Below the pieces are notes generated by a model. It saw only the letters and a program-made list of their open reading frames with translations, had not been told where the DNA came from and ran no database searches. A stretch of DNA of 64,000 nucleotides from Alienimonas californiensis. GTDB lineage: Bacteria > Planctomycetota > Planctomycetia > Planctomycetales > Planctomycetaceae. The DNA is taken from NCBI RefSeq assembly GCF_007743815.1, contig NZ_CP036265.1, positions 1,852,323 through 1,916,322 on the forward strand. Reading direction: 5' to 3'. Position numbers and translations under genes: made by a program. Below are positions 2,619-60,550 of this stretch, piece by piece. The first letter of the stretch is position 1. Each line of letters starts with the position of its first letter.

Positions 2619-3674
2619 GTGATTTCCCGCCCGTCCCTGTCCGCCGTCCCGGTTTCCGTTTCTGAGCGCGGTTCCGTCCGGCGTTCTTCGTCCCGGGCGG
2701 GCTTCACGCTCGTGGAGTTGCTGGTCGTGATCGGGGTGATCGCGATCCTGATGGCCCTGCTGGCCCCCGCCGTGATCGGCGCCGCGGGCGCGGCCCGGGT
2801 CGCCGCGGTCCGCTCCGACATGAGCGGGATGGAGGCGGCGATCTCCCAGTTCCACGCCGAATACGGCCGCACCCCGCCCAGCTTTATCGACCTGCGGCGG
2901 ACTTCGGGAAAGAAGTTCGTCAACCCCGCGACGATGTCGACGCTCCGCAGCGTCTTCGGCCCGCAGATCGACGAGGCGACGATGATCGACAGCCTCAACC
3001 GCATGGATTTCCCCGGCGAAGGGGCGTCGGGCGACACTGACTTTTCAAAACGCGGCGTCGTCCGCGGGGCGGAGTGCCTGGTGCTGTTCCTCGGCGGCCT
3101 GCCGGCCAGCGGATCGCCCACGCCGACCAAGGAACTGGCCGGGTGGAGCCAGAACCCGCGCGATCCGTTCAACGCCCAGACGAAGGCGGGCGGCTTCACG
3201 CTGCTGGACAAGAATCGCCGCAAAGGACCGTTCTTCACGTTCGAACCGGACCGGCTGCTTTTCAACAACGAGGTGGAAGGCTCCGGCTTCACGCCGTCGG
3301 CGACCGGCGACCCCGGGGTGTCCTACTTCACCTACCTCGACACGTTCGAGACGCAGACGACCCCGCTGATCTACGCCAGCAGCGACAACGGCCGCGGATA
3401 TCGGACGCAGGACGTGCTTTATAACGTCGGCGTGTTCTTGAACGACGACGGCAGCGCCGCGTTGTCCCAGGGCGTGTATCAGTCGCCGGGCGGCGGGGCG
3501 GTGAACCCCAACGGCTATCAGATTATCTCCCCGGGGCGGGACGGGCAGTTCGGCGGGGGCGGGAGCTACAGCGCCGACGACGGCTATACGCCGGTGAAGG
3601 ACGCCTCGGATCAGATCATCCCCGGCGGGGAGGACAACATCACGAATTTCTCCGACGGCATGCTGGACGACTAG
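2619..3674 (+). CDS. Type II secretion pseudopilin, GspG-like
   Basis: A 351-residue secreted pseudopilin. A short basic leader ends at the prepilin peptidase site AG^FTLVELLVVIG (Glu at +5), followed by about 20 hydrophobic residues that form the pilin spine. The C-terminus has glycine/aspartate loops (SPGRDGQFGGGG and GGEDNITNF) like the calcium-binding end of GspG pseudopilins. GTG 2619 is preferred because the longer frame from 2334 would translate the R4 inverted repeat and an unstructured 95-residue extension. At 351 residues it is longer than classical GspG (about 140). Second gene downstream of gspE, probably co-transcribed with the following pseudopilins. Confidence 0.8.
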   Translation: MISRPSLSAVPVSVSERGSVRRSSSRAGFTLVELLVVIGVIAILMALLAPAVIGAAGAARVAAVRSDMSGMEAAISQFHAEYGRTPPSFIDLRRTSGKKFVNPATMSTLRSVFGPQIDEATMIDSLNRMDFPGEGASGDTDFSKRGVVRGAECLVLFLGGLPASGSPTPTKELAGWSQNPRDPFNAQTKAGGFTLLDKNRRKGPFFTFEPDRLLFNNEVEGSGFTPSATGDPGVSYFTYLDTFETQTTPLIYASSDNGRGYRTQDVLYNVGVFLNDDGSAALSQGVYQSPGGGAVNPNGYQIISPGRDGQFGGGGSYSADDGYTPVKDASDQIIPGGEDNITNFSDGMLDD

Positions 3675-4944: not shown

Positions 4945-6423
4945 ATGATGCGTTTTCTCTCCCCTCGCCAATACCAGCCCGAGGCGCAAGCCTCGGCCGT
5001 GCGTCTTTTCCCTCGGCGGGAGCGGCTGCGCCGACCCCCGGAGCTCGCGCTCCGGGCTGGTATGCGGTCCCCCCGCCGGACCGGCTTCACGCTGATCGAA
5101 CTGCTGGTGGCGGTCACGATCTTCCTGATCCTGGCCACCGTCACCCTGACGGCGGTGGGGGCGTTCCAGAGCGCCGATCAGGTCAGCGGGTCGGCCCGGC
5201 AGGTGCAGAGCTTCACCAGCGGCGCCCGCGACCGGGCGATCTATACGGTGCGCACGGACGCCGGCGCCCGCTCCCGCGGCGTGCGGCTGCTGGTTAACAA
5301 CGACCTGACCGACGCCAACGGCAACCCGTTCGCCTGCACCACGCTGCAATACGTCGAAAGCGCCGGCTACTTCCCCCCGCTAGCCGTCGACCGGCTGGAG
5401 TTCGCTGACAGCGAATTGCTGTTCCTCGCCGGCGGACCGACTGACGGCACCGTCGCCGAACTCGTTCCTCCGGTCTTCGTCGGCGGCGTGGTTCAACCTT
5501 ATAAAGACGGCGACGACGGCAATCCGCCGGACTTCTTTCTCACCGCCGGCAGCGAACGGGAGCCGATCGCCGACAAGCCCGGCGCCTTGGCCACGGCCTG
5601 GCGGGACACCCCGCTGAACCGCGTGTTCCAGGCGGGCTTGTTGGGGGAGAACATCCCGAAACAGACCGCGTCGCCCCATCAAACCACGGCTCTGTTCACC
5701 GCCCGCGTGCGGCTGCCGAAGTACGCGAACGGCGCCGGGCGCTGGTATCAGGCACTGATCGTCTCCGTAGGGTCCGAGGGCGAGAGCGAGCAGGCGCTGC
5801 GTCTCAAGGGGATCGCCCGGGTGTTCCTGATGACGCTCTCCGCTGCGGAGGACCCGCAGGAATATAATTTGAACGCCGCCGAGGACGGCTACGTCTTCGA
5901 GTTGCGGACAGTACCGCTGGCCGGCGAGGACCCGCGGCCGCTGCCGAACCAGACCGCGATCGACCTCCGCGGCGCCGCCCGCTTCGGCGGGCTGCCCTCC
6001 ACCTGGTTCACGCTGGTGAACCACGACGGCGACGGCTCGACCGCCGCGATCCCCGTGCCGCGGGGGCCGCTGGACATCATGTTCGATCCCTCGGGGATGG
6101 TGACCGGCCCGCTGGCCGCCAGCGGTCTGATCCATCTGCCGGTGGTGAGCCTGGAGGACCTGGACGAAGGCACGAACTCCGGGCGCTTCGCCCAGGGCGA
6201 GTTCCTGCCGCTGGGCTACGTCGGCACGGACGCGGACGCCCCGATCGCCTTCGACGGCACGACCTACTCCGGCCCCGGCAAAAGCGCGGAGGACCTCGTC
6301 GTCACGATCAACACCCAGACCGGCACGGTGACCGTCGCCCCGCTCGACGGGGCGACCTCGTCCGGCAACGGCATCGCCAACGATCCGTTCCGATTCGCCG
6401 AACTCGGACTGGAGGCGCCGTGA
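4945..6423 (+). CDS. Prepilin-type pseudopilin (GspH-like); start uncertain, 4945 or 5062
   Basis: Pseudopilin with cleavage site TG^[13 protein letters not shown] and a single N-terminal hydrophobic helix. The frame is 492 residues from ATG 4945 or 453 from ATG 5062. The first 39 codons are mostly the dispersed repeat R2 (4971-5063), and ATG 5062 sits at its very edge with a compact basic leader (MRSPRRTG). I favour 5062 on leader length, but 4945 couples to the upstream stop with one base between. The GTG start of the next gene overlaps the stop (GTGA). The body has no recognisable enzymatic motif. Confidence 0.78.
   Translation: MMRFLSPRQYQPEAQASAVRLFPRRERLRRPPELALRAGMRSPRRTGFTLIELLVAVTIFLILATVTLTAVGAFQSADQVSGSARQVQSFTSGARDRAIYTVRTDAGARSRGVRLLVNNDLTDANGNPFACTTLQYVESAGYFPPLAVDRLEFADSELLFLAGGPTDGTVAELVPPVFVGGVVQPYKDGDDGNPPDFFLTAGSEREPIADKPGALATAWRDTPLNRVFQAGLLGENIPKQTASPHQTTALFTARVRLPKYANGAGRWYQALIVSVGSEGESEQALRLKGIARVFLMTLSAAEDPQEYNLNAAEDGYVFELRTVPLAGEDPRPLPNQTAIDLRGAARFGGLPSTWFTLVNHDGDGSTAAIPVPRGPLDIMFDPSGMVTGPLAASGLIHLPVVSLEDLDEGTNSGRFAQGEFLPLGYVGTDADAPIAFDGTTYSGPGKSAEDLVVTINTQTGTVTVAPLDGATSSGNGIANDPFRFAELGLEAP
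4971..5063. repeat. R2 dispersed palindromic repeat, copy 1, inside a reading frame
   Basis: About 93 bp bounded by perfect 11-bp inverted ends (ataccagcccg / cgggctggtat), with inner hairpins gaggcgcaagcctc and ggagctcgcgctcc. The reverse complement of 28940-29019 aligns along most of its length, sharing ggccgtgcgtc, ccctcggc and ggctgcgccga. It occupies the 5' end of the pseudopilin frame beginning at 4945. Confidence 0.8.
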
Positions 6424-8126
6424 CGACCTCCGCCGCTTCGCGGTTCTCCTCTCGACTGTTCATTCGTTCCCTCTCCGGCTCTCTGATGCACGCCCGCCCG
6501 TCCGCCCGCCGCCCCGTTTCGCCGCGATTGTCGGCGGCGATGGCGCGGCGGCTCCGGGCTACGCCCCGCGGCCGCCGCGCGGCGGCCCGGCTGGGCGTGA
6601 CGTTGACGGAAGTGCTGATGAGCCTGCTGGTGATGGGCATCGGCGTGACGAGCGTCGCCACGCTGTTCCCGCTGGCGGTGCTCCGCGGCGCCCGGGCCAC
6701 GCAGTTGACGGCCGGCACGATCCTGAAGGTGAACGCCGAGGAAACGGTCCGCTTCAGCCACACCCCCTCGCTGGAGGCCCCGTTGCCGAAGCAGATCGGC
6801 GGGGTGCTGCTGAAGGGGGGCGTGAGCGCCTTCCCGCGGGGCGCCAGCCCCGGCGTGGAGCGGTTGGCGATGCTGCTCGACCCGGACGCCAACGGCAGCC
6901 TGGACGTCTGCGGGGCGGCGACGAAGGTCTCTCCCACGAACACGCTGGCCTGGGGGCCGGGCGGGGCGTTCCTCGGCAACGGCGGCACGCCGCGGAAGTA
7001 CGTCGTCGACCCGCTCGGCGCCGCGGTGCTGGCAGGAGACACGTCGGACGCCGTGAGCCCGTGGTTCTACGGCGCGAAGGCCACGGCCGGTTCGGCGGCG
7101 ACGGATCAGTTCGGGGCCGCCCTGGGCGGCGAGCCCGCCCTGCGGTTCGCCTGGCCCTTCCCCTGGGAGATGGTCAACGCCGCCGAGAGCGGCAACTCGG
7201 CCGTGCGGCGGCAGATGGTCGAGACGGCCTACAACGTCGTCGGCCGGGCCGGGGACTACAGCTCCGATCTGGACGTGGACGCCTCGGCGACCTTGAACGC
7301 CGCCGGCACGGTGACGATCACGTTCAGCAACCGCGACGTGGAGAACGGGGCGCTGGAGGAGTTCTACGATCAGAACAACGCCACGGCGGAGGGGCTCGCC
7401 GTGCCGGGGGCCGATCTCGCCCGGATCGTGCTGTTCGCTCCCGACCAGCGGTCCAGCGCCGCCATCCCGCTGGCCCGTCTGCCGGAGGCGGAGGTGAGAG
7501 CCGGCGCCGCTCCGGACGACGTGACGGACGTCGCCGACGGCTACACCCTCACGGTTCACACCCCGAACGCCGGCTTCCAGGCGGCGGCGTTCGACACCGA
7601 CGGCGACGGCGTCGCGAACACCGGGGCGAACGTGCCCCTGCGGGTGCGGCTGGAACGGCCGGACCGGCGGTACAGCTGGATGCTGACCTGCCGGCGGACC
7701 GGCTCGGAGCGGACCGAGGCGGAGGTCGCCGTGTTCTTCAACCGGGCCCTCAGCGCGGAGGACGAGTCCGTCTGGCGCAGCGTGCGGACCGCGAGCGGCT
7801 CCTACGTGCTGTTCTGGGACACGGGCTCCGCGACCCCGCAGCGGAACCCGCAGGTGGTGGGCGGCGGCTGGCTGCTGGAAATGGGCGAATTCGCTTGGTT
7901 ACAGGTCGGCCGCGTGCTGGAGGCCGAAGGCGACCCCACGGACGCCGACGCCCCCCAACGGGTGAAGGACGCCTACAGCCGGGCCGGCGGGGGGATGACC
8001 ACGCCGCGATATCTGGAGTTCCTGCTGTCGTCCGGCACGCCGCGCCGCAACGAGGCCGGGATGGGGGGCAACCTGTTCGCCACGTTCCCGCGGGGGGTGG
8101 TGTCCGTGTTCACGCTGGACCCGTAA
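6420..8126 (+). CDS. PilV/GspI-like prepilin-type protein
   Basis: A 568-residue pseudopilin-like protein. Its cleavage site LG^VTLTEVLMSLLVMG has Glu at +5 and resembles the GspI/PilV signature rather than FTLIE. The helix runs through TSVATLFPLAVL. GTG 6420 overlaps the previous stop by 4 bases and implies translational coupling; an in-frame ATG at 6486 is an alternative that still leaves a basic leader. It is far longer than classical GspI (about 120 residues). The large body contains Asp-rich loops (DTDGDGVANTG) and no catalytic motif that I recognise. Confidence 0.78.
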   Translation: MTTSAASRFSSRLFIRSLSGSLMHARPSARRPVSPRLSAAMARRLRATPRGRRAAARLGVTLTEVLMSLLVMGIGVTSVATLFPLAVLRGARATQLTAGTILKVNAEETVRFSHTPSLEAPLPKQIGGVLLKGGVSAFPRGASPGVERLAMLLDPDANGSLDVCGAATKVSPTNTLAWGPGGAFLGNGGTPRKYVVDPLGAAVLAGDTSDAVSPWFYGAKATAGSAATDQFGAALGGEPALRFAWPFPWEMVNAAESGNSAVRRQMVETAYNVVGRAGDYSSDLDVDASATLNAAGTVTITFSNRDVENGALEEFYDQNNATAEGLAVPGADLARIVLFAPDQRSSAAIPLARLPEAEVRAGAAPDDVTDVADGYTLTVHTPNAGFQAAAFDTDGDGVANTGANVPLRVRLERPDRRYSWMLTCRRTGSERTEAEVAVFFNRALSAEDESVWRSVRTASGSYVLFWDTGSATPQRNPQVVGGGWLLEMGEFAWLQVGRVLEAEGDPTDADAPQRVKDAYSRAGGGMTTPRYLEFLLSSGTPRRNEAGMGGNLFATFPRGVVSVFTLDP

Positions 8127-10619: not shown

Positions 10620-13600
10620 ATGAACGCCCGCCGCAACCCCCCGCCCCGCCCGCTCGCGCCTCGGGCGACCGCCCCCTCCCGGCACGCCCGCCGGGGGACC
10701 GTGATCGTCGTGGTCATCGCCCTGCTGGGGGCGTTGATGCTGCTGGGCTTCCTGTTCCTGACGCTCACGATGCAGGAGGAGGCGAACAGCCAGAATTTCG
10801 GCGAGACCCACGACCTGCCCGCCGAAAAAGACCCGGACGTCTTCTTTAACTGGGCCCTGGAGCAACTGATCGTCGGCCCGCCGGACACGGCCCGCAACAG
10901 CGTGCTGTTCAGCGGTTATAAATCGCTGCTGCCGAATATGGTCGGGGCGGACCTGGCCCCCTACGACGGCACGGGCGTCGGCACGGCGTGGAGCGGGGCG
11001 AACGGCCGGCCGGAGCTGGACCTCAACCGCAACGGCGTCGTCGACCTGGACGAGGGCCTCGATCCGGCGAAGCAGTTCGCCCTGCAACTGAACTTCGCCC
11101 CCGGCTCGCAGCTGGACCCGCTGGACTACACGGCGCTGCGGAACCCGTCCGTCAATCTGCTGCCGGCCCCGGACGCGGACTTCACCTACCCGGACCTCAA
11201 CAGCGCCTTCCTGTCCTACGACTGGATCGAACCGGTCACCGGGCGGCGGGTCGTGATCCCCTCGTTCCACCGCCCCCAACTGCTGCGGAACCGGATCGCC
11301 GCGGGCGACTATCTGCTGGACCCGGGGAGCGAGTGGACCGACGTGGGCGGGACGCCGGTGCACCCCTGGTACACCAGCACGGAGACGCTGCCCTTCGTGA
11401 TGCGGCCGCACCTAGAGCGCCGCGTGGTCGCCACCGATCCGGAGAACCCGACGAACTTCAGCGTGCGGTTTGAGGACGCGGGGTACGCCCGACGGTTCGT
11501 GACCGGGAATTGGCCGGACGTGGACGGTTCCGGCCCCGTCGCCTCGGACGATCCGAGCTTCGTGCCGCCGATCAGTCTGGCCGTGCATCGGGAACCGATC
11601 TGGCGGGTGGGGATCGGCGACGCCGCCGCGGTCGCCGCCGGCACCGACACCGCCGCCTACGCCAACAGCTACGACGCCGACCCGGACAACGACGGCATCT
11701 TCGACGCGATCTGGCTGGACCTGGACTTCCCGATTCAAAACGCCGGCGACGGCGTGGGAGAGTTCGTGCCGCTGTGGGCGTTGAAGGTCGTGGACGTGGA
11801 CGCGCTGTTCAACCTGAACGCGCACGGCAACAGCTACGGCTCCTACGCGGACGCCGACGGCGACAGCGTGGACGATAGTTTGAACCTGCTCGGCGACCGG
11901 TTCATCGGGAGCACGAACGCCGCCCCGCCGCTCTCGCAGAGCGGCTCCGGCCTGATGACGCAGGACGGGGTCAACGCGCAGTACGGCCTGGCGGGGTTGG
12001 GCAACACCAACATCGACCCGCTGTCGGACGAGGCGAAGGCCGTGAAGGCCTTCAGCGAGTTCTACGACCGCGCCCGCGACACCGACACGCCCTGGACCGG
12101 CGGGGCGGCCCAGAGCCGCAACTTGGAGTGGTGGTTCCTGCTGCACGGCCGCGTCACCTTCCGCGACAGCCCGGGCGGCGGCGGCGGCCGCGTGCCGGAC
12201 GACCTGCTGGTCGGCCGCTACGGCGAGCCGGACCGGCTGGAGGAGGGGGCGATGGTGCTGGGGACCGGCGACCCGACCGCCGCGGCGTTCTTCCCGTACC
12301 CGGGTCTGACGGCCAACTCCTACAACGTCGGCGGGGCCGGCGACGACAACTCCAACGCCTTGGAGGGCCTGGGCCGGCAGTTGCCGGGGCTGGCGTTCGG
12401 CGGGGCCCGGGGCTACGGCGCCGGCGCCACGCACACGATGACCATCGCCCCCGAGGGCGTGCCGCTGGACCGCCGCGGCAGCGGGTTCGCCACCGACGCC
12501 CTCCGCGGTCTGCAGGGCCTGTTCCTGACGGACACCAACCCCATCCCCAACGACGGCCGGACGCTGCCGGACGGATTGGAGGACGGGAACGTGCGGTTCC
12601 GGTTCCCCACGCTGATGAACGCGGTGCTGCCGCTGTTCGACGTGAGCGCCAATCAGGGCTTCAACAACTCGGCGACGGTCGGGGCGGTCGGCGCGTTCGC
12701 CTACGTGCGGAACTGGTTCGCCGGGACCGGCCTGCATGAGGGCCGCATCTTCGCCAATCGGGCCTACGCCGTCGCGATGAACGCCGCCGGCGAGCCGACC
12801 CAGGGCACGGTGACGGCGGAATTGACCGGCCAGGGCGCCGCCGCCGGGTCGATGGTCGAACCGACCTCCGGGAACGCCGGGGCGGCGCCGACGGGCCGCT
12901 GGGCGGCCTCGCTGTACGGCGCCGCGGCCGGCCAGATGAATAATTTCGAGCAGTACCATCGCCTGCAAATCGACGAGCCGGCGGAGACGATCCGCGACTT
13001 CGATCTGGCCCAGTCGCAGAGCAGCGACCAGATCTTCTCCCCCGCGGAGACTGCCCGGCTGCACATGACGGACGCGGACTACCGAATCGGCAAAACGACC
13101 AGCCGCCTGCTGACGCTGGCGCCGGTCAGCTTCGCCAAGGCGCCGGAGCACGAGCGCGTCCGCCGCCGGTTCACCTCGGTGAGCTGGGACGTGGCCACGA
13201 CCGCCTCCCGCTTCGAGCCGCCCGTCGCCGCCCTGCAGAGCCCCGGGGCGAGCGAGCGGGCTTGGGAGCACAATCGCCTCCCCTCCGCTGCCGCCACGGA
13301 CCCCCGCCAATTCCCGCCGGTGTTCGGCAACGTCGCGGCGTTCGACCAGAACGACCCGTTCCGGGCCCCGGTGCGGAGCATTCTCGGCCAGGCCGTCATG
13401 AACGCGGAGCCGACGACGCTGGACGGCAAGCGGGACCTCCGCCGGCTGATGCGGAAGCTCAGCTTCAATCTGGTCGCCGAACGCGTCACCAACCCCGCCG
13501 ACCCCGCGTTCGACCGCACCGCCGGCACGAACGGGCACGGCGAGGTGCGGCTGCGGACCCTCACCCCGCACCCGCTCAACCTGGCGGCGACCGAGGTGAT

Positions 13601-16600
13601 CGGCCCCGCCGGGCACCCGGCGTTCGCGGATTACACAGGCACCACGAACACGACGCCGCGGTTCGGGGTCATGGAGGACAACCCGATCCCCAGCGACGGC
13701 GTGACCCGGGTCAACCTCCGGGCCGCCGGCGGCGGCGCCGGCACGGGGCTGCTGACGTGGGACTTCGGCGGCCTCAGCGGGCAAAGCGCCCTGCGGGCCC
13801 AGGAGTGGCACGCCCGCCGGGATCGGCAGAACCTCGCCCGGGACATCTACGTCCTGCTGTACACGGTGGGCGGCGTCGACCCGGCCACGCCGAACAAGAA
13901 CTACACCGGCGACAACTCCGCCCACGCGCTCTACTCCGAGGAGCAGCTCCGCGAGATGGCGCAGCTCGCGGTGAACATCGTGGACGCGATGGACCCGGAC
14001 CCGGTCCGCACGCTGTTCGTTTACGACAAGAACCTCGGCAACGGCTACACGCCGTTTGACGACGGCTACGCCAACCGCCCCGACCCGGCCGACAATGAAC
14101 GCGGCGTCGTCGCGGGCGTCGAACGGCAGGAACTGGCCCTGTCCGAAGTCCTGGCGAACGTCTCCTGGGCGGAGGACGGGACCGACGGGGACGGCGACCC
14201 GGCCAACCACACGCTGACGGAGTGGAACGACGCCGGGAAGGACGAGACGCCGCACGACTTCTTGTTCGTCGAACTGGCCTACACCGGCCCGGGCGAACTC
14301 AACTTCGCCGGGGGCAACCCGGCGATCAACGGCGGGGCGCCGGGCGAGAACGTCCGGATCGTCGTCCGCGACCCGCGGAACGATCGGCAGTTCCGTGAGG
14401 ACGACGGCCTCGTCGGCACGCCGGCGATGAGCGCCCGCGCGATCATCCCCCGGGCCGGCAAGCTGACCGCCGCCCGCCCGTTCTACACCGTCGCCAATGC
14501 GGACGCGTACAACGACGGCAGCACCTACGTCGACACCATGACGTACAACGCCGCCAACGCCCGCAGCCGCATGCGGGTGAACCTCAACGAGCAGCGGTCC
14601 GCCCCCAGCGGGGTGGACGGGGTGAACTGGATCACCCTCGCCCCGCAGCCGTTTGCCGACAACGCCCGGCAGGTGGACCCCGCGTCGGTACTGCGGGACA
14701 CGAACTCCGGCAACAACGCCCAGATTCTTGACACGCTGGCGCCCGGCGACACGGCGAACCCGACCTTCCGCGTCCAGCACCTGAACAACGACCTGACCGT
14801 CACCGCTCTGGCGAACCCCGCGACCGCGGACGCGAACGACCTGTTCCATCTGAATCCGCCCACCGCTGAGGACTGGTATGCCGACGCCGACGCCACCCCG
14901 GCGGTCGAGGTGCTGCTCCAGGTTCGGTTGAACCCGCTCCGCCAGCCCAAGGCCGCCGACCCGGCCGACCCGAACTACGGGACCGAGGACCGCGACAACC
15001 CCTGGGTCACCGTCGACCGGACCCGGGTGGTGACCACGCGGCTGGACCTGTTCGTGGGTGACGACAACGACGCCGACCCGTCGGCGAACCCGGGCAGCGG
15101 GGCCTTCGAGGCGCACTTCACCGACGGCGGCGCCGTCGCCGGGCCGATCTCCGCGGCGGGCGGCACAAACGACACGCCCAAGCTCGCCAGCCGCGTGCGG
15201 ATGGAGCCCCTGCTGCGGGCCAGCGAACTGGCCGCCGTCGGCCGGACGAACGCCGAACGCTCCCTGTTCGACGGGGCGAACCCCTCCCCGCGGAACGCGG
15301 AGTACGGCTCCTTCGTGTTCAACTCCCTCGGCGGGCACGACCGGAACAGTCCGGGCGGACATGCCGGGGAGATGCGGCCGTTCGCTCTCTGGCAGCCGCA
15401 CTACGACCGCGAGTTCGCCGGCCCCGCCGACGTGATCGGCGTGCCGCTGTACGACGCCGAATCCCTCACCGGCCTCACCGCCGAGAGCGACCGGGCCTTC
15501 GGCAGCGGGGCCTCGGCGATCAAGAAGACGACCTTCCAAGAGTTTTCGACGCTCGGCAGCAACGCCCTGCGGCAGATCGGTCTCGGCTACGACCCGGACC
15601 CGCAGGATTTCACCGGGCAGACCGGCGTCGGGCACGACGCCGTCCTCAACGAGTTCGCCGTCGCCGGGTCCCGGCTGCTCTACCCGGACGTCGCCCGCCC
15701 CTCCTGGCAGGACCCCGTGTACGGGGGCGACGGCGCCAGCACGACGCAATTCAACGCTTGGTACCGCCTGTTGCAGTACGTCGGCACGCCCCGGCGGCTG
15801 GCCGAGATGACCGACGCCGTTGCGGAGACCGTCGCCGTCGGCCCGACCGACCGACTGAACCAGGACGGCACGTTCGATCTGGGCGAGTACCGCCTGCCCG
15901 GCCGCATCAACCTGAACACCCTGCGGCACCCGCAGGTGCTCGCCGGGGTGATGGACGACTCGCGGGTCCACGGCAGCCCGAGCTTCTTCGGTCTGCCGGC
16001 GGCCCCCGGGAGCCCCACCCCTGCCGGGACCAGCGGCGTGACGGACCTCGGCGGGAACTCCTTCAACGAGGACTTCTACCGTTCCCTGCTGCTCTCCCGC
16101 GACGGCCGCGACCCGCTCACCCTGCCGCCCGACTGGGGCGGCGTGCGGGCCGTTCTGCCCGGGCTGGCGGCCCGGGGGATGGGCGCGGCGGGCGGACTCG
16201 ACGGGAACCCCTTCACCGGGTTCCACGGCCCGACCGGCTCGCTGACGGACCCCAAGAACCTGCGGGGGGCGATTCAGTCCACCCCGCTGCGACTCCGCCC
16301 GCAGGCCGACGCCTGGGTCGGTGGGACCGGCGTCGCCCTGAACGGCCGCACGGACCGTACGAGCGACAACCTGCCCCGCGCCTTCTTCGGCGTGGGCGGG
16401 TCTCAGATCAACCACGCCACGGACGAGACCGGCCGGAACCCCGCGGACCTGGACTTCACCACCCGCTACCGATTGCTCAACAAAGTGTTGAATTCTGCAA
16501 CACACCGTAGCAACGTGTTCCTCTGCTGGATTCAGGTCGACTTCTTCCACGCCCGGGAACTGACCGGCGAGGAGATTGGCCTGACCGGCGCCGAGGCCAA

Positions 16601-16823
16601 CCAGCGTCTGGTGCGGATCGGCGCCAAACGGGGCGACAGCCCCCGCTACCGCGGCGTGTTCCTGATCGATCGCTCCAAAGCCCCGGCCCTGCTGCGGGCG
16701 GACCATCTGCCGGAGACCTCCGACGCCGGGCTGAACACCTACAGCTTCGCCCGGGAACCGCTCTCCGGCGGGGCCAAGTTCCCCTGGCAGGAGCTGATCC
16801 TTCACCGCCAGCGGATTCAGTGA
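10620..16823 (+). CDS. Giant GspK-like/PilX-type secretion protein, 2067 residues
   Basis: The N-terminus has a basic leader ending RRG^TVIVVVIALLGALML and one hydrophobic helix (residues 27-47). It lacks the +5 Glu, as GspK does, and its last place in the pseudopilin order fits GspK. Classical GspK is about 320 residues; this is six times longer. The body is rich in Asn, Asp and Gly, with repeated acidic loops (DADGDSVDDS, DPDNDGIFDAIW, DGTDGDGDPANH). The C-terminal block around residues 1955-1985 (LNKVLNSATHRSNVF, then CWIQVDFF) looks conserved and structured. Architecture recalls the large protein of Verrucomicrobia prepilin cassettes (Verru_Chthon cassette protein A), by analogy only. No enzymatic motif seen. 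It most likely forms or caps an extracellular pseudopilus. Confidence 0.75.
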   Translation: MNARRNPPPRPLAPRATAPSRHARRGTVIVVVIALLGALMLLGFLFLTLTMQEEANSQNFGETHDLPAEKDPDVFFNWALEQLIVGPPDTARNSVLFSGYKSLLPNMVGADLAPYDGTGVGTAWSGANGRPELDLNRNGVVDLDEGLDPAKQFALQLNFAPGSQLDPLDYTALRNPSVNLLPAPDADFTYPDLNSAFLSYDWIEPVTGRRVVIPSFHRPQLLRNRIAAGDYLLDPGSEWTDVGGTPVHPWYTSTETLPFVMRPHLERRVVATDPENPTNFSVRFEDAGYARRFVTGNWPDVDGSGPVASDDPSFVPPISLAVHREPIWRVGIGDAAAVAAGTDTAAYANSYDADPDNDGIFDAIWLDLDFPIQNAGDGVGEFVPLWALKVVDVDALFNLNAHGNSYGSYADADGDSVDDSLNLLGDRFIGSTNAAPPLSQSGSGLMTQDGVNAQYGLAGLGNTNIDPLSDEAKAVKAFSEFYDRARDTDTPWTGGAAQSRNLEWWFLLHGRVTFRDSPGGGGGRVPDDLLVGRYGEPDRLEEGAMVLGTGDPTAAAFFPYPGLTANSYNVGGAGDDNSNALEGLGRQLPGLAFGGARGYGAGATHTMTIAPEGVPLDRRGSGFATDALRGLQGLFLTDTNPIPNDGRTLPDGLEDGNVRFRFPTLMNAVLPLFDVSANQGFNNSATVGAVGAFAYVRNWFAGTGLHEGRIFANRAYAVAMNAAGEPTQGTVTAELTGQGAAAGSMVEPTSGNAGAAPTGRWAASLYGAAAGQMNNFEQYHRLQIDEPAETIRDFDLAQSQSSDQIFSPAETARLHMTDADYRIGKTTSRLLTLAPVSFAKAPEHERVRRRFTSVSWDVATTASRFEPPVAALQSPGASERAWEHNRLPSAAATDPRQFPPVFGNVAAFDQNDPFRAPVRSILGQAVMNAEPTTLDGKRDLRRLMRKLSFNLVAERVTNPADPAFDRTAGTNGHGEVRLRTLTPHPLNLAATEVIGPAGHPAFADYTGTTNTTPRFGVMEDNPIPSDGVTRVNLRAAGGGAGTGLLTWDFGGLSGQSALRAQEWHARRDRQNLARDIYVLLYTVGGVDPATPNKNYTGDNSAHALYSEEQLREMAQLAVNIVDAMDPDPVRTLFVYDKNLGNGYTPFDDGYANRPDPADNERGVVAGVERQELALSEVLANVSWAEDGTDGDGDPANHTLTEWNDAGKDETPHDFLFVELAYTGPGELNFAGGNPAINGGAPGENVRIVVRDPRNDRQFREDDGLVGTPAMSARAIIPRAGKLTAARPFYTVANADAYNDGSTYVDTMTYNAANARSRMRVNLNEQRSAPSGVDGVNWITLAPQPFADNARQVDPASVLRDTNSGNNAQILDTLAPGDTANPTFRVQHLNNDLTVTALANPATADANDLFHLNPPTAEDWYADADATPAVEVLLQVRLNPLRQPKAADPADPNYGTEDRDNPWVTVDRTRVVTTRLDLFVGDDNDADPSANPGSGAFEAHFTDGGAVAGPISAAGGTNDTPKLASRVRMEPLLRASELAAVGRTNAERSLFDGANPSPRNAEYGSFVFNSLGGHDRNSPGGHAGEMRPFALWQPHYDREFAGPADVIGVPLYDAESLTGLTAESDRAFGSGASAIKKTTFQEFSTLGSNALRQIGLGYDPDPQDFTGQTGVGHDAVLNEFAVAGSRLLYPDVARPSWQDPVYGGDGASTTQFNAWYRLLQYVGTPRRLAEMTDAVAETVAVGPTDRLNQDGTFDLGEYRLPGRINLNTLRHPQVLAGVMDDSRVHGSPSFFGLPAAPGSPTPAGTSGVTDLGGNSFNEDFYRSLLLSRDGRDPLTLPPDWGGVRAVLPGLAARGMGAAGGLDGNPFTGFHGPTGSLTDPKNLRGAIQSTPLRLRPQADAWVGGTGVALNGRTDRTSDNLPRAFFGVGGSQINHATDETGRNPADLDFTTRYRLLNKVLNSATHRSNVFLCWIQVDFFHARELTGEEIGLTGAEANQRLVRIGAKRGDSPRYRGVFLIDRSKAPALLRADHLPETSDAGLNTYSFAREPLSGGAKFPWQELILHRQRIQ

Positions 16824-16864
16824 TCCCCCCGCCGATGGACCCGCCCTGGGGGATTCACCCCTCG

Positions 16865-16879
16865 TGGCACGTGTTTTGC
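16865..16879 (+). promoter_or_regulatory. sigma-54 (RpoN) -24/-12 promoter
   Basis: TGGCACG (16865-16871), four bases, then TTGC (16876-16879) is an exact match to the core sigma-54 consensus TGGCACG-N4-TTGC with the required GG-N10-GC spacing. Transcription would begin near 16891, about 73 bases before the DUF1559 gene. A sigma-70-like TAGAAT (16882-16887) immediately downstream is an alternative -10 element with no clear -35. Sigma-54 control would require an enhancer-binding activator, which is not in this window. Confidence 0.7.
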
Positions 16880-16963
16880 GATAGAATGCCTGCGGCGTTC
16901 CGCCGTTTCTGAACCACCCCGTTCCCGCCGTTCCGTCCCCTGCTCGCTCAAGGCTCCGACCCG

Positions 16964-18142
16964 ATGAACCTCCCCCGCCCCCGCCGACCCCTCGCCGCGG
17001 CGCGGCGGGGCCAGCTCTTCCTGAAACCCGGCCGCACCGGGTTTACGCTAATCGAACTGCTGGTGGTCATCAGCATCATCGCGGTGCTGATCTCGCTGGT
17101 GGCCCCCGCCGTCCAGCAGGCCCGCGCCGCCGCCCGGCTGATGCAGTGCCAGAACAATGTCAAGCAGATCACCCTGGCGCTGACCAACAAATCCACCAGC
17201 AACAGCGGCAAGCTGCCCCACATCCGCGACGGGGTGTACCGGCTCGCGGACCGGAGCAACGCCGGCATCGCCGCCCGCAACACGTGGCCGCGGTCGATCC
17301 TGCCGCAGATGGACGCCCGGTCGCTGGACCGCTCGATCAGCAGCCTGGAAGAGCTGCACCTGACCACTTCCGACGTCGCTGACTTCACCGACCGGATCGC
17401 GGTGCTGAACCTCGGCACCGGCCAGGTGAAGAGCTACGTCTGCCCGGACGACAGCGTCAACGCCAGTGCCAACTACGGCCTGAGCTACCGGGCGAACGGC
17501 GGCTACTTCGGCAGCAGCATCACCCCGTTGGCCGACGGCACCGGCGGGAACGCCGGCGCCCACACCCCCAGCAACTACGACTGGACCGTCAACGGCGTCG
17601 ACGTGCCGAACAATGTCGACGTCCACCTCAAGAGCGGGGCGATGCACATGCCGGTCGGCGGCGACATCGACGTCCCCGGCGCGTCCCCGGCTCAACTGAC
17701 GCTGGACCAGATCGGCAACTGGGACGGGACCACCAACACGATGTGGATCTCCGAGAACGACACCCAGTCGAGCTGGCTCGACGGCAACGCCTTCGGCCTC
17801 GCCTTCGGGGCGACCGTGGCCAGCACTGGCGACTCCCCCGTCGCCGCGACCTTCCCGCAGGAGGGCGCCTACCTGCCGTTCGCCAACGAGGACCCGGGCA
17901 AGCCGAACGCCAAGTTCAACAGCAACGTGGCGCGGCCGCGGCCCTCGTCGGAGCACTCCGGCGGGGCGATCATCGTCGGGTTCTGCGACGGTCGGGCCAC
18001 CAGCTTCAACGACAACATCGCCCGCGACGTCTACATCCGCCTGATCTCCAGCGGCGGGTCGGCCCTCTCCTTCGCCCGTGACGGCAGCGCCACCTCCGGC
18101 TTGCCGCTGCAGGCCCCGGTCAGCGCCTCCGATTACGACTGA
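16964..18142 (+). CDS. DUF1559 domain prepilin-like secreted protein
   Basis: A 392-residue planctomycete-type DUF1559 protein. A basic leader (residues 1-26) ends at the prepilin site TG^[16 protein letters not shown], followed by the family block [21 protein letters not shown]. The C-terminal His and glycine/aspartate block ([18 protein letters not shown]) is typical of DUF1559. The family is greatly expanded in planctomycetes and its role is unknown; members look like substrates of a pseudopilin assembly machine. The gene stands alone, 140 bp after the secretion cassette, with its own sigma-54-like promoter and a good terminator. ATG at 16964. Confidence 0.92.
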
Positions 18143-19388: not shown

Positions 19389-19829
19389 GTGACGGACGTC
19401 GCCGTCTTGCTGGTTCAGGCCGCCGTCACCCTGCCGCTGGTCGGGCTGATCTGGACGGTGCAGCTTGTGCATTACCCGCTGTTCGACGGCGTCGGGGCGG
19501 AGGGGTTTGCGGAATACGAACGCCGGCACTCCCTCCGCATCACCTGGATCGTGGCGCCGCTGATGCTGGCGGAACTGGCCGTCAGCGGCTGGCTGGCCGT
19601 GCAGCCGCCCGCGGGCGTGCCGGCGTGGCAATGCTGGCTGGGAGCGACGCTGACGGCGGGAATCTGGCTCTCGACCGGCTTCCTGCAGGTCCCCCGCCAT
19701 CGGGAACTCGCCGCGGGCTTCGTCCCCGCCGCCCACGCGGCGCTGGTGGGCACGAACTGGCTGCGCACGCTGCTGTGGTCCGGCCGTGGGGCTCTGGCAC
19801 TGGCGATGCTCGCGGCCCGGCTGAGCTGA
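19389..19829 (+). CDS. Uncharacterised four-helix membrane protein
   Basis: A 146-residue integral membrane protein with about four hydrophobic helices (near residues 4-28, 53-72, 83-100, 110-140). Notable polar positions are VQLVHYPLF in helix 1, RITW before helix 2, QVPRHREL after helix 3 and GTNWLRTLLW in helix 4. The conserved-looking His, Arg and Trp residues inside or next to membrane segments suggest a binding role, possibly cofactor or proton. I do not recognise a named family. GTG start at 19389, right after the R4 repeat. Monocistronic as far as can be seen. Confidence 0.72.
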   Translation: MTDVAVLLVQAAVTLPLVGLIWTVQLVHYPLFDGVGAEGFAEYERRHSLRITWIVAPLMLAELAVSGWLAVQPPAGVPAWQCWLGATLTAGIWLSTGFLQVPRHRELAAGFVPAAHAALVGTNWLRTLLWSGRGALALAMLAARLS

Positions 19830-40032: not shown

Positions 40033-40043
40033 GGGTTCCGTCC

Positions 40044-40223
40044 TCCCCTCGCCCCCCTTTTTGGGGGAGAGGGGTCGGGGGTGAGGGGGCAACGACGCCC
40101 GCACTTCGTTCACCGTTCGCCTCGCTCTCCCGTCGGTGGGTCACCGCAGAGAGCGGCAACGGGTGAACCGTGCCCCACCCTCACCCCCGGCCCCTCTCCC
40201 TGAGGGAGAGGGGGGAAGAGCGA
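40044..40223. repeat. R1 dispersed composite repeat, copy 1 (orientation A-B)
   Basis: Module A is a GC hairpin (cccctcgccccccttttt and ggggagagggg) followed by tcgggggtgagggggc. Module B is the palindromic cccctctccctgagggag and its flank. The two are joined by a spacer with cgttcaccg and caccgcagagagcgg. It separates the rhomboid gene from the adaptor gene, and the naive upstream frame of the adaptor reads through its end. Confidence 0.85.
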
Positions 40224-40259
40224 GCCGGCGGGCCTTCTGTCCCGCTCCCGGCGCCGTGT

Positions 40260-47338: not shown

Positions 47339-47346
47339 GGATCATT

Positions 47347-47525
47347 TCCCCCCTCTCCCTTGAGGGAGAGGGGCCGGGGGTGAGGGTGAGCGAACGGTTC
47401 ACCCGTTTCCGCTCTCTGGGGTGACGGACTGGCTGACGGACGAGCGATCGGACCGTGAACGGCGGGCGGGCGTCGCTGCCCCCTCACCCCCGGCCCCTCT
47501 CCCCTAAAAGGGGGCGAGGGGGGAC
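47347..47525. repeat. R1 dispersed composite repeat, copy 2 (orientation B-A)
   Basis: ccctctcccttgagggagag (palindromic module B), a spacer ending cggaccgtgaacggcg, then ccccctcacccccggcccct and module A with gggggcgagg. Lies between convergent genes and may carry their mRNA 3' ends. Confidence 0.85.
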
Positions 47526-50983: not shown

Positions 50984-51094
50984 CGTCGGGCATCCTTACC
51001 CCCGCGGAGCGGCCGGCAACTGTCGGCGCCGTTCTGCCCTCTGCCGTGAGAGCGCGGGGAGGGCGAGTCAGCGATACACCAGAAGGTTCGCCGC

Positions 51095-51273
51095 GCTCTT
51101 CCCCCCTCTCCCTCGAGGGAGAGGGGCCGGGGGTGAGGGCGGGGCACGGTTCGCCCGTCTTCGTCCTCTGCGGTGACAAACCGACGGGAGAGCAGACGGA
51201 CAGTGAAGGGCGTGCGGGCGTCGCTGCCCCCCTCACCCCCGACCCCTCTCCCCGAAAAGGGGGCGAGGGGAGA
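51095..51273. repeat. R1 dispersed composite repeat, copy 3 (B-A)
   Basis: Contains the palindromic cccctctccctcgaggga unit, the spacer (ctctgcggtgacaaaccg) and the reverse A module with gggggcgagg. It occupies most of the 317-base gap between the ABC and phosphofructokinase genes. Confidence 0.85.
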
Positions 51274-52838: not shown

Positions 52839-53015
52839 TCCCCTCGCCCCCTTTTGGAGGAGAGGAGTCGGGGGTGAGGGGGCAGTGATTCCCGCACGCC
52901 GTTCATGGTCCGCCTCGCTCGCCCGCCGGTCGGCTTGCCACGGCATGAGCGGAGACGGGCGAACCGCTCGCCCACCCTCACCCCCGGCCCCTCTCCCTCA
53001 AGGGAGAGGGGAGCA
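52839..53015. repeat. R1 dispersed composite repeat, copy 4 (A-B)
   Basis: Module A (ccctcgcccccttttggagg, then gtcgggggtgagggggc), spacer and module B (ctctccctcaagggagag). It is in the gap between the phosphofructokinase start and the glgC stop, with opposite orientation to copy 3. Confidence 0.85.
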
Positions 53016-53025
53016 GAATGGCCCC

Positions 53026-56929: not shown

Positions 56930-56953
56930 GGAACCGGCAGGGCGTCGCCCTAC

Positions 56954-57132
56954 TTCCCCCCTCTCCCTTGAGGGAGAGGGGTCGGGGGTGAGGGTGGCGC
57001 ACGGTTCCTACGTCTCCGCTCTCTGCGGTGACGAACCCGGCGATGCACGAGCAGACGGACCGTCAGCGGCATGCGGGGGTCACTGCCCCCTCACCCCCGG
57101 CCCCTCTCCCCCAAAAGGGGGCGAGGGGGGAC
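56954..57132. repeat. R1 dispersed composite repeat, copy 5 (B-A)
   Basis: Same modules as the other R1 copies, with cctacgtctccgctctctgc in the spacer. It sits between the convergent ends of the Gln-rich gene and the BBP7 gene. Confidence 0.85.
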
Positions 57133-60118: not shown

Positions 60119-60127
60119 CGCGGTTTT

Positions 60128-60303
60128 TCTCCCCTCTCCCTCAGGGAGAGGGGCCGGGGGTGAGGGTGAGGCACGGTTCCTACGTCCCCGCTCTCTGCGG
60201 TGACGAACCGGTCGACGGGCGAGCAGGCGGACCGTGAACGGCGATCGGGCATCACTGCCCCCTCACCCCCGACCCCTCTCCCCCAAAAGGGGGCGAGGGG
60301 GGA
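60128..60303. repeat. R1 dispersed composite repeat, copy 6 (B-A)
   Basis: Nearly the same as copy 5, including the cacggttcctacgtccccg segment. It begins ten bases after the CAP stop. Confidence 0.85.
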
Positions 60304-60335
60304 CGCGAGAGCGGGAGTTTGAGCGTCGGTCGGCT

Positions 60336-60519
60336 CGCTCTTCCCCCCTCTCCCTCGAGGGAGAGGGGCCGGGGGTGAGGGTGAGGCGTGGTTCGCCGGT
60401 CCCCGCTCTTCGCAGTGACGCACCGGACGACGGACGAGCCGGCGGACGGTGAACAGGGTTCGGGAGTCGCCGCCCCCTCACCCCCGACCCCTCTCCCCCA
60501 AAGGGGGGCGAGGGGGGCA
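60336..60519. repeat. R1 dispersed composite repeat, copy 7 (B-A)
   Basis: Directly repeats copy 6 after a 32-base gap, so two full elements stand in tandem between convergent genes. Confidence 0.85.
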
Positions 60520-60550
60520 CAGGTCAGCCAAGCCTGAGATTGGTTCGCCT

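Follow-up and report, generated by a model that had tools for sequence, protein, structure and literature searches.

The window analysed here, a single stretch of 64,000 nucleotides from Alienimonas californiensis, begins inside a gene for a GspE/PilB-like ATPase, of which the C-terminal part is encoded on the plus strand at 18-908, followed on the same strand by a gene for a GspF/PilC-like protein (1055-2329). Both proteins are identified by domain matches and together form the assembly machine of the cluster. Behind them lie a GspG-like prepilin gene (2619-3674, plus strand), for which GTG 2619 is the probable start in a mechanical open reading frame that runs from 2334, and four further plus-strand genes between 3744 and 10503, of which three match the prepilin N-methyl motif of Pfam and the fourth (6420-8126) has a weak PilV-like NCBIfam match only. 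The next plus-strand gene, at 10620-16823, encodes a giant prepilin-like protein of 2067 amino acids with a hydrophobic N-terminal stretch, which had zero matches in searches of Pfam and NCBIfam. Its position and N-terminus suggest a GspK-like protein. Members of the family share it at low sequence identity, and it would be unusually large for a pseudopilin. The C-terminal 487 residues are matched in 59 of 170 family genomes. The last gene of interest, at 16964-18142 on the plus strand, encodes a prepilin-like protein of 392 amino acids with a DUF1559 domain (PF07596, 78.9 bits) and a GFxxxE prepilin N-terminus (N_methyl, 30 bits; TIGR02532, 28.1). The giant gene is its syntenic partner, standing directly upstream of the DUF1559 gene in 16 of the 29 loci of relatives that were found through their best DUF1559 match. 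The window also carries an interspersed element of about 180 nt, at 40037-40256, 47346-47524, 51089-51273, 52840-53017 (minus strand), 56953-57131, 60127-60303 and 60328-60526, with the left end CCCTCTCCCT..AGGGAGAGGGG..CGGGGGTGAGGG and the right end CCCTCACCCCCG.C.CCTCTCC (inverted). It is shared with the sister species (L119:13800-13990) and looks like a short mobile repeat; Rfam at gathering thresholds matches neither this element nor anything else within the 64-kb window.

Between the giant gene and the DUF1559 gene lies a sigma-54 type -24/-12 element on the plus strand (16865-16879), which consists of TGGCACG (16865-16871), the spacer TGTT and TTGC (16876-16879). The GG at 16866-16867 and the GC at 16878-16879 give a spacing of exactly GG-N10-GC, and the core TGGCAC-N5-TTGC is present, so that the claim of the initial annotation that an exact sigma-54 core precedes a DUF1559 prepilin gene holds letter by letter. 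The element is intergenic and correctly oriented, starts 41 nt past the stop of the giant reading frame and stands 84 nt upstream of the ATG at 16964. The base directly after TTGC is G, the commoner base at this place in sigma-54 promoters being A or T. The element is directly followed by the A/T-rich stretch GATAGAAT (16880-16887), which would fall between -11 and -4 and could be the region melted by the sigma-54 polymerase, or else an overlapping sigma-70 -10 element without a -35. Sigma-54 geometry places the predicted start 12 nt after the C of the -12 element, which gives a predicted leader of about 73 nt (16891-16963, plus strand). This leader has a hairpin, GCGGCGTTCCGCCG, near its 5' end (-8.6 kcal/mol, z -1.8), and AAGG before the ATG, and its segment GCGGCGTTCCGCC is also found in the sister species. 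Another plus-strand hairpin, at 16820-16857 where the giant gene ends, can be folded in the sister species as well and may be a terminator that separates two transcription units, although it lacks a T-run and its z of -1.4 (-1.1 in the sister) is not striking.

As a single match, the site is not exceptional. We scored it with a sigma-54 matrix based on the published consensus, and complemented this by a spacing scan that is independent of the matrix. At 15.4 bits the site is the top matrix match of the window on both strands; the runner-up is CTGGCACTGGCGATGCT at 19794-19810, with 14.5 bits. An equally strong match occurs, however, in 12 of 60 dinucleotide-shuffled windows, and the two matches of at least 12 bits in the window are fewer than the shuffle mean of 3.3. 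In the genome of about 5.48 Mb the exact core pattern is found 4 times as against 3 for the reversed control, while another consensus, TGGCAYN5TTGCW, which the 16865 site does not fit, is found 2 times as against 3. Because shuffled windows and reversed patterns give such similar counts, the single match lies within chance, and the evidence beyond chance for the 16865 site is comparative. The word TGGCACAGTGGTTGCA near an activator gene (2977920) was dropped as a positive control; the open reading frame downstream of it does not appear gene-like.

The comparison starts with the sister species, which contributes the one further genome of the genus in the set searched and whose syntenic DUF1559 ortholog is 62% identical. 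Here CGGCACGCCGTTTGCGATAGAAT aligns with TGGCACGTGTTTTGCGATAGAAT of the window, and the core reads CGGCACG-N4-TTGC. Ten of the 11 core bases are the same, whereas three of the four spacer bases have changed, and the whole intergenic region has 97 of 144 alignment columns identical. The core is thus conserved above the regional average, and its neighbours GATAGAAT and GCGGCGTTCCGCC are kept in the sister as well.

Beyond the genus, 95 loci were considered (L036-L065 and L152-L216), of which 49 intergenic regions from 29 genera were kept; 17 loci without a match to the giant gene, 17 without a prepilin motif within 1500 nt of its stop and 12 duplicates were dropped, and a search for further orthologs in additional genome contigs found none. 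In this set TGG-N8-TTGC, which is equivalent to GG-N10-GC, occurs in 14 of the 49 regions (9 genera) in the forward direction and in none as the reverse complement, and no other spacing between 0 and 24 gives more than 5 in either direction. The same preference is seen with GG-N8-TTGC (24 forward and 2 reverse; at most 13 at other spacings) and with GG-N7-TTTGC (20 forward and 1 reverse; at most 9). By the matrix, 16 regions from 11 of the 29 genera reach 10 bits or more, while 100 dinucleotide-shuffled sets give a mean of 1.8 regions (maximum 6) and 1.8 genera (maximum 5); when the matrix is run with the base composition of the regions themselves, it finds 16 forward, a single one as the reverse complement and none reversed. 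GG and GC are both kept in 15 of these 16 regions, the exception being L193, and L168 has a poor -12; TTGGCACACAGTTTGCA (L052) and TTGGCAGGGGAATTGCT (L172) are examples of ortholog sites. The remaining 33 of 49 orthologous regions stay below 10 bits, some with nothing at all. When the presence of the site is mapped onto a quick tree of 48 of the 49 proteins, at least 10 changes are required, which means frequent loss or gain. A first reading, in which the sigma-54 site was not conserved in relatives, was overturned by the matrix and spacing scans. Since related genera keep a like site in the same place, the 16865 site is very probably real.

This conservation is seen for the orthologs of this one gene, while in its own genome DUF1559 genes as a class do not show such sites. 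The genome has 72 PF07596 domain matches, a count that includes split domains and genes without a prepilin motif, and 59 distinct upstream regions with a recognisable prepilin motif were scanned. Only two of the 59 reach 10 bits, namely the 16865 site itself and a site of 12.1 bits in L067. The latter (G000:C1:3214800-3216400) reads CTGGCACGGAAAAAGCC, has the GG-N10-GC spacing and lies about 214 nt before the prepilin motif. Sites of this strength are commoner in the orthologous regions (16/49) than before the other DUF1559 genes of the same genome (1/58; Fisher p ~9e-6, with genomes within a genus not being independent), and among DUF1559 genes of relatives without a giant-gene match 1 of 12 reaches 10 bits. 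A -24/-12 element is missing from the nearest paralog (C1:275574, 75% identical), which nevertheless keeps CGATAGAAT. Given two sites in 59 regions and a close paralog without one, sigma-54 control is not a class property of DUF1559 genes here, and a genome-wide sigma-54 regulon of these genes was rejected on the same count. The proposal of the initial annotation that sigma-54 ties DUF1559 expression to a specific signal therefore fails for DUF1559 genes in general, for which no enrichment of sites is found in this genome, but is supported for this gene, where the orthologs are enriched and the genome encodes RpoN and its activators. The 16865 site is probably a sigma-54 promoter that works, and one that serves this single DUF1559 gene.

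The initial annotation had also noted a weaker site of the same spacing before the GspG-like gene and taken it as a hint of shared control of prepilin-like genes. This plus-strand GG-N10-GC site, CCGGCGCCGCGTTTGCA (2560-2576, with CGGCGCCGCGTTTGCA at 2561-2576), scores 8.4 bits, and its sister counterpart GCGGCGCACCGTTTGCA scores 8.3 bits. For the comparison, 70 of the 124 genomes with a match were examined, giving 70 loci, of which 5 were dropped (L222, whose site scores 14.9 bits, was one of them) and 65 regions from 39 genera remained. Twelve of the 65 GspF-GspG regions (6 of 39 genera) reach 12 bits, as against 1 for the reverse complement and 0 reversed; the corresponding forward, reverse-complement and reversed counts are 13, 1 and 5 at 10 bits or more, and 22, 3 and 8 at 8 bits or more. 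TGGCA-N7-TGC is found 10 times forward and twice in reverse, with at most 1 at other spacings, while the looser GG-N8-TTGC is unremarkable (11 forward, 10 reverse). These counts replace an earlier one on unrestricted 450-nt regions reaching into the GspF gene, in which the forward count at 10 bits or more (8 of 30) had not exceeded the reversed one (9 of 30). Good sites occur at both the GspG-like and the DUF1559 gene in genera 5, 15 and 27, at the DUF1559 gene only in genera 23 and 25, and at the GspG-like gene only in genus 57. Because three genera have sites at both genes, shared control is likely in some genera; in Alienimonas, where the local site is weak, it is no more than a possibility.

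In relatives, the region before the DUF1559 gene often contains a second element, CATAATGGAGG, which we take to resemble a -10 element with a G-rich discriminator. With at most one mismatch it is found in 11 of the 49 DUF1559 regions, and not at all as the reverse complement, reversed or in 20 shuffled sets. It is exact in L040, L043, L044, L051, L160, L173 and L187, and the other copies have 1-3 mismatches. If CATAAT copies are counted that differ from the full word at no more than 4 positions, the 16 regions of at least 10 bits have such a copy downstream of the GC in 9 cases, upstream of it in L187 and none in 6. The distance after the GC is 94-97 nt in genera 15 and 27, 108 nt in genus 5, 51-57 nt in genera 23 and 25 and 34 nt in genus 10; in a further genus-5 genome with a weaker sigma-54 site (9.5 bits), the element lies 97 nt downstream. 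As a general promoter word CATAATGGAGG was rejected: YATAATGGAGG occurs 46 times in 59 genomes as against 49 for the reversed control, which is background, and 3 of 30 fetched loci lie before a prepilin motif. The idea that CATAATGGAGG is the counterpart of GATAGAAT was likewise rejected after the matrix and spacing scans, because CATAATGGAGG and sigma-54 sites coexist, and at different offsets.

These elements bear on the best of the alternatives, in which sigma-54 and sigma-70 polymerases both use overlapping or tandem sites and provide an induced and a basal level of expression. The recurrence of CATAATGGAGG at 34-108 nt past the GC speaks for it, as do GTGACA at 16-18 nt upstream of four CATAATGGAGG copies and the presence of GATAGAAT in Alienimonas. 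A -35 element is, however, not generally conserved before CATAAT, since at least 4 of 6 positions match in 8 of 23 copies, which is not significant against a shuffle mean of 3.3 and a maximum of 9; the L187 element lies upstream of the best sigma-54 match, and YATAATGGAGG occurs 0 times in the genome of the window. Dual use of this kind is compatible with the explanation that we prefer, and we regard it as possible but less likely than not.

Less probable is the explanation that only an overlapping sigma-70 type promoter with the -10 hexamer TAGAAT (16882-16887) is used and that the sigma-54 core is there by coincidence or as a relic. What gives it some weight is GATAGAAT, which reads the same at the gene itself, in the sister and in the paralog without a sigma-54 site. 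The genome has 14 copies of it as against 5 of the reversed word, several of them shortly before mechanical open reading frame starts, which makes it a candidate -10 word of this GC-rich organism. Copies preceded by C or G and lying no more than about 100 nt upstream of such starts are found at G000:C1 275501-275508, 1609867-1609874, 2519903-2519910, 3082294-3082301 and 3451750-3451757. TAGAAT may be a second start signal. As the sole promoter, however, it has no TTGACA-like -35 hexamer 16-18 nt upstream, where CCTCGT, CCCTCG and CCCCTC are found, and an A/T-rich stretch after the -12 element is expected at sigma-54 starts anyway. Moreover, GATAGAAT is confined to Alienimonas among the 49 orthologous regions (present in 2, absent from the other 47), so that this explanation leaves TGG-N8-TTGC in 13 further orthologous regions, all of them without GATAGAAT, unaccounted for, and we consider it unlikely. 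A chance match, in which one of the few exact cores expected in a GC-rich genome of this size happens to precede the gene, agrees with the pattern counts and shuffled windows given above but is hard to reconcile with the conservation in the sister and the enrichment among orthologs, and is the least likely of the three.

The machinery that a sigma-54 promoter needs is encoded in the genome. RpoN is encoded once (PF04552, 218 bits), as it is in 156 of the 170 family genomes. Ten strong PF00158 matches identify enhancer-binding proteins, none of them inside the window. A GAFTGA-type motif is found by pattern in 8 of the 10, and the pattern is absent from the fetched stretches of the other two (L290 and L291). 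Among the 8 activators examined for further domains, 6 have a receiver domain, one has FHA and GAF domains and one has a GAF match just under the cut-off. We therefore prefer the reading, to which we assign a probability of about 0.82, that 16865-16879 is a working -24/-12 promoter which drives the DUF1559 gene as its own unit through RpoN and an NtrC-type activator. The RpoN polymerase would sit at 16865-16879 as a closed complex, just behind the GspE-F-prepilin cluster. An enhancer-binding protein of the NtrC class, most probably the response regulator of a two-component system, would bind upstream, with its sites probably in the 3' end of the giant gene or else in the 41-nt gap, and would spend ATP to open the A/T-rich GATAGAAT stretch. 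The resulting transcript, a separate unit, would begin at about 16891 with the leader of 73 nt and encode the DUF1559 prepilin-like protein. The DUF1559 protein, a putative subunit of a pilus or pseudopilus, would in this way be supplied in response to a signal and independently of the other products of the cluster. Of this scheme, the data show the site with its conservation, the order of the genes and the presence of RpoN and activators, while the steps from binding to filament function are inferred.

We further speculate that a module of this kind extends through the family, with sigma-54 promoters at the GspG-like and the terminal DUF1559 genes under one two-component activator. In several genera the DUF1559 promoter would be a tandem of sigma-54 and CATAATGGAGG elements (94-97 nt apart in genera 15 and 27 and in one genus-5 genome), lineages would switch between the two, and a planctomycete pilus would have the DUF1559 protein as its regulated major subunit. 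This speculation is tentative and we hold it to be rather doubtful as a whole. In a transcriptome of Rhodopirellula under stress, 74 DUF1559 genes are reported; the expression of nine rises in cold and salt shock, that of 16 falls in heat shock, and the domain is assigned there to a solute-binding family (PMC2754498, in the part covered). DUF1559 is a large planctomycete family without a known function, with 72 domain matches in this genome alone. A conserved, signal-dependent promoter would mark the copy beside the GspE/F cluster as the likeliest real filament subunit, and rpoN together with the six receiver-type activators would offer a handle on when the protein is made.

Sigma-54 control of pilin genes is established elsewhere, the type IV pilin gene pilA being under PilS/PilR. 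Like pilA promoters, the site described here is a -24/-12 element immediately upstream of a prepilin gene, and its genome encodes activators of the NtrC type. Unlike them, it precedes a gene for a DUF1559 product, stands behind a giant GspK-like gene and belongs to a planctomycete. Type IV pili synthesis is named in the introduction of a 2025 survey of sigma-54, in which COG4969 PilA is enriched for predicted sigma-54 sites in beta- and gamma-proteobacteria; for Planctomycetia the passages covered describe a "lesser" enrichment at COG2165 (PulG-type pseudopilins) and mention T2SS protein E as well (PMC12316311). Our site is in line with this, being a predicted sigma-54 site at a prepilin-like gene in the same class. 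However, the survey gives class-level statistics, with 0 occurrences of DUF1559 in its main text and no individual site, synteny or second element in the passages covered (PMC12316311), whereas the present analysis follows one orthologous region across 29 genera. The main text of another article (PMC3162934) has zero occurrences of planctomycet, Rhodopirellula, DUF1559 or pilin, and the literature covered on DUF1559 or planctomycete sigma-54 promoters, which takes in few subscription journals, does not describe the site. A further parallel is found in the PEP-CTERM genes of Proteobacteria, which, in the part of the study covered, have a two-part cis region of an activator motif and a sigma-54 motif (PMC1569441). 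They resemble the present case in that surface-protein genes stand as single units with an upstream -24/-12 motif, and differ from it in that their activator motif lies upstream, while the second element in the relatives of Alienimonas lies mostly downstream of the sigma-54 site.
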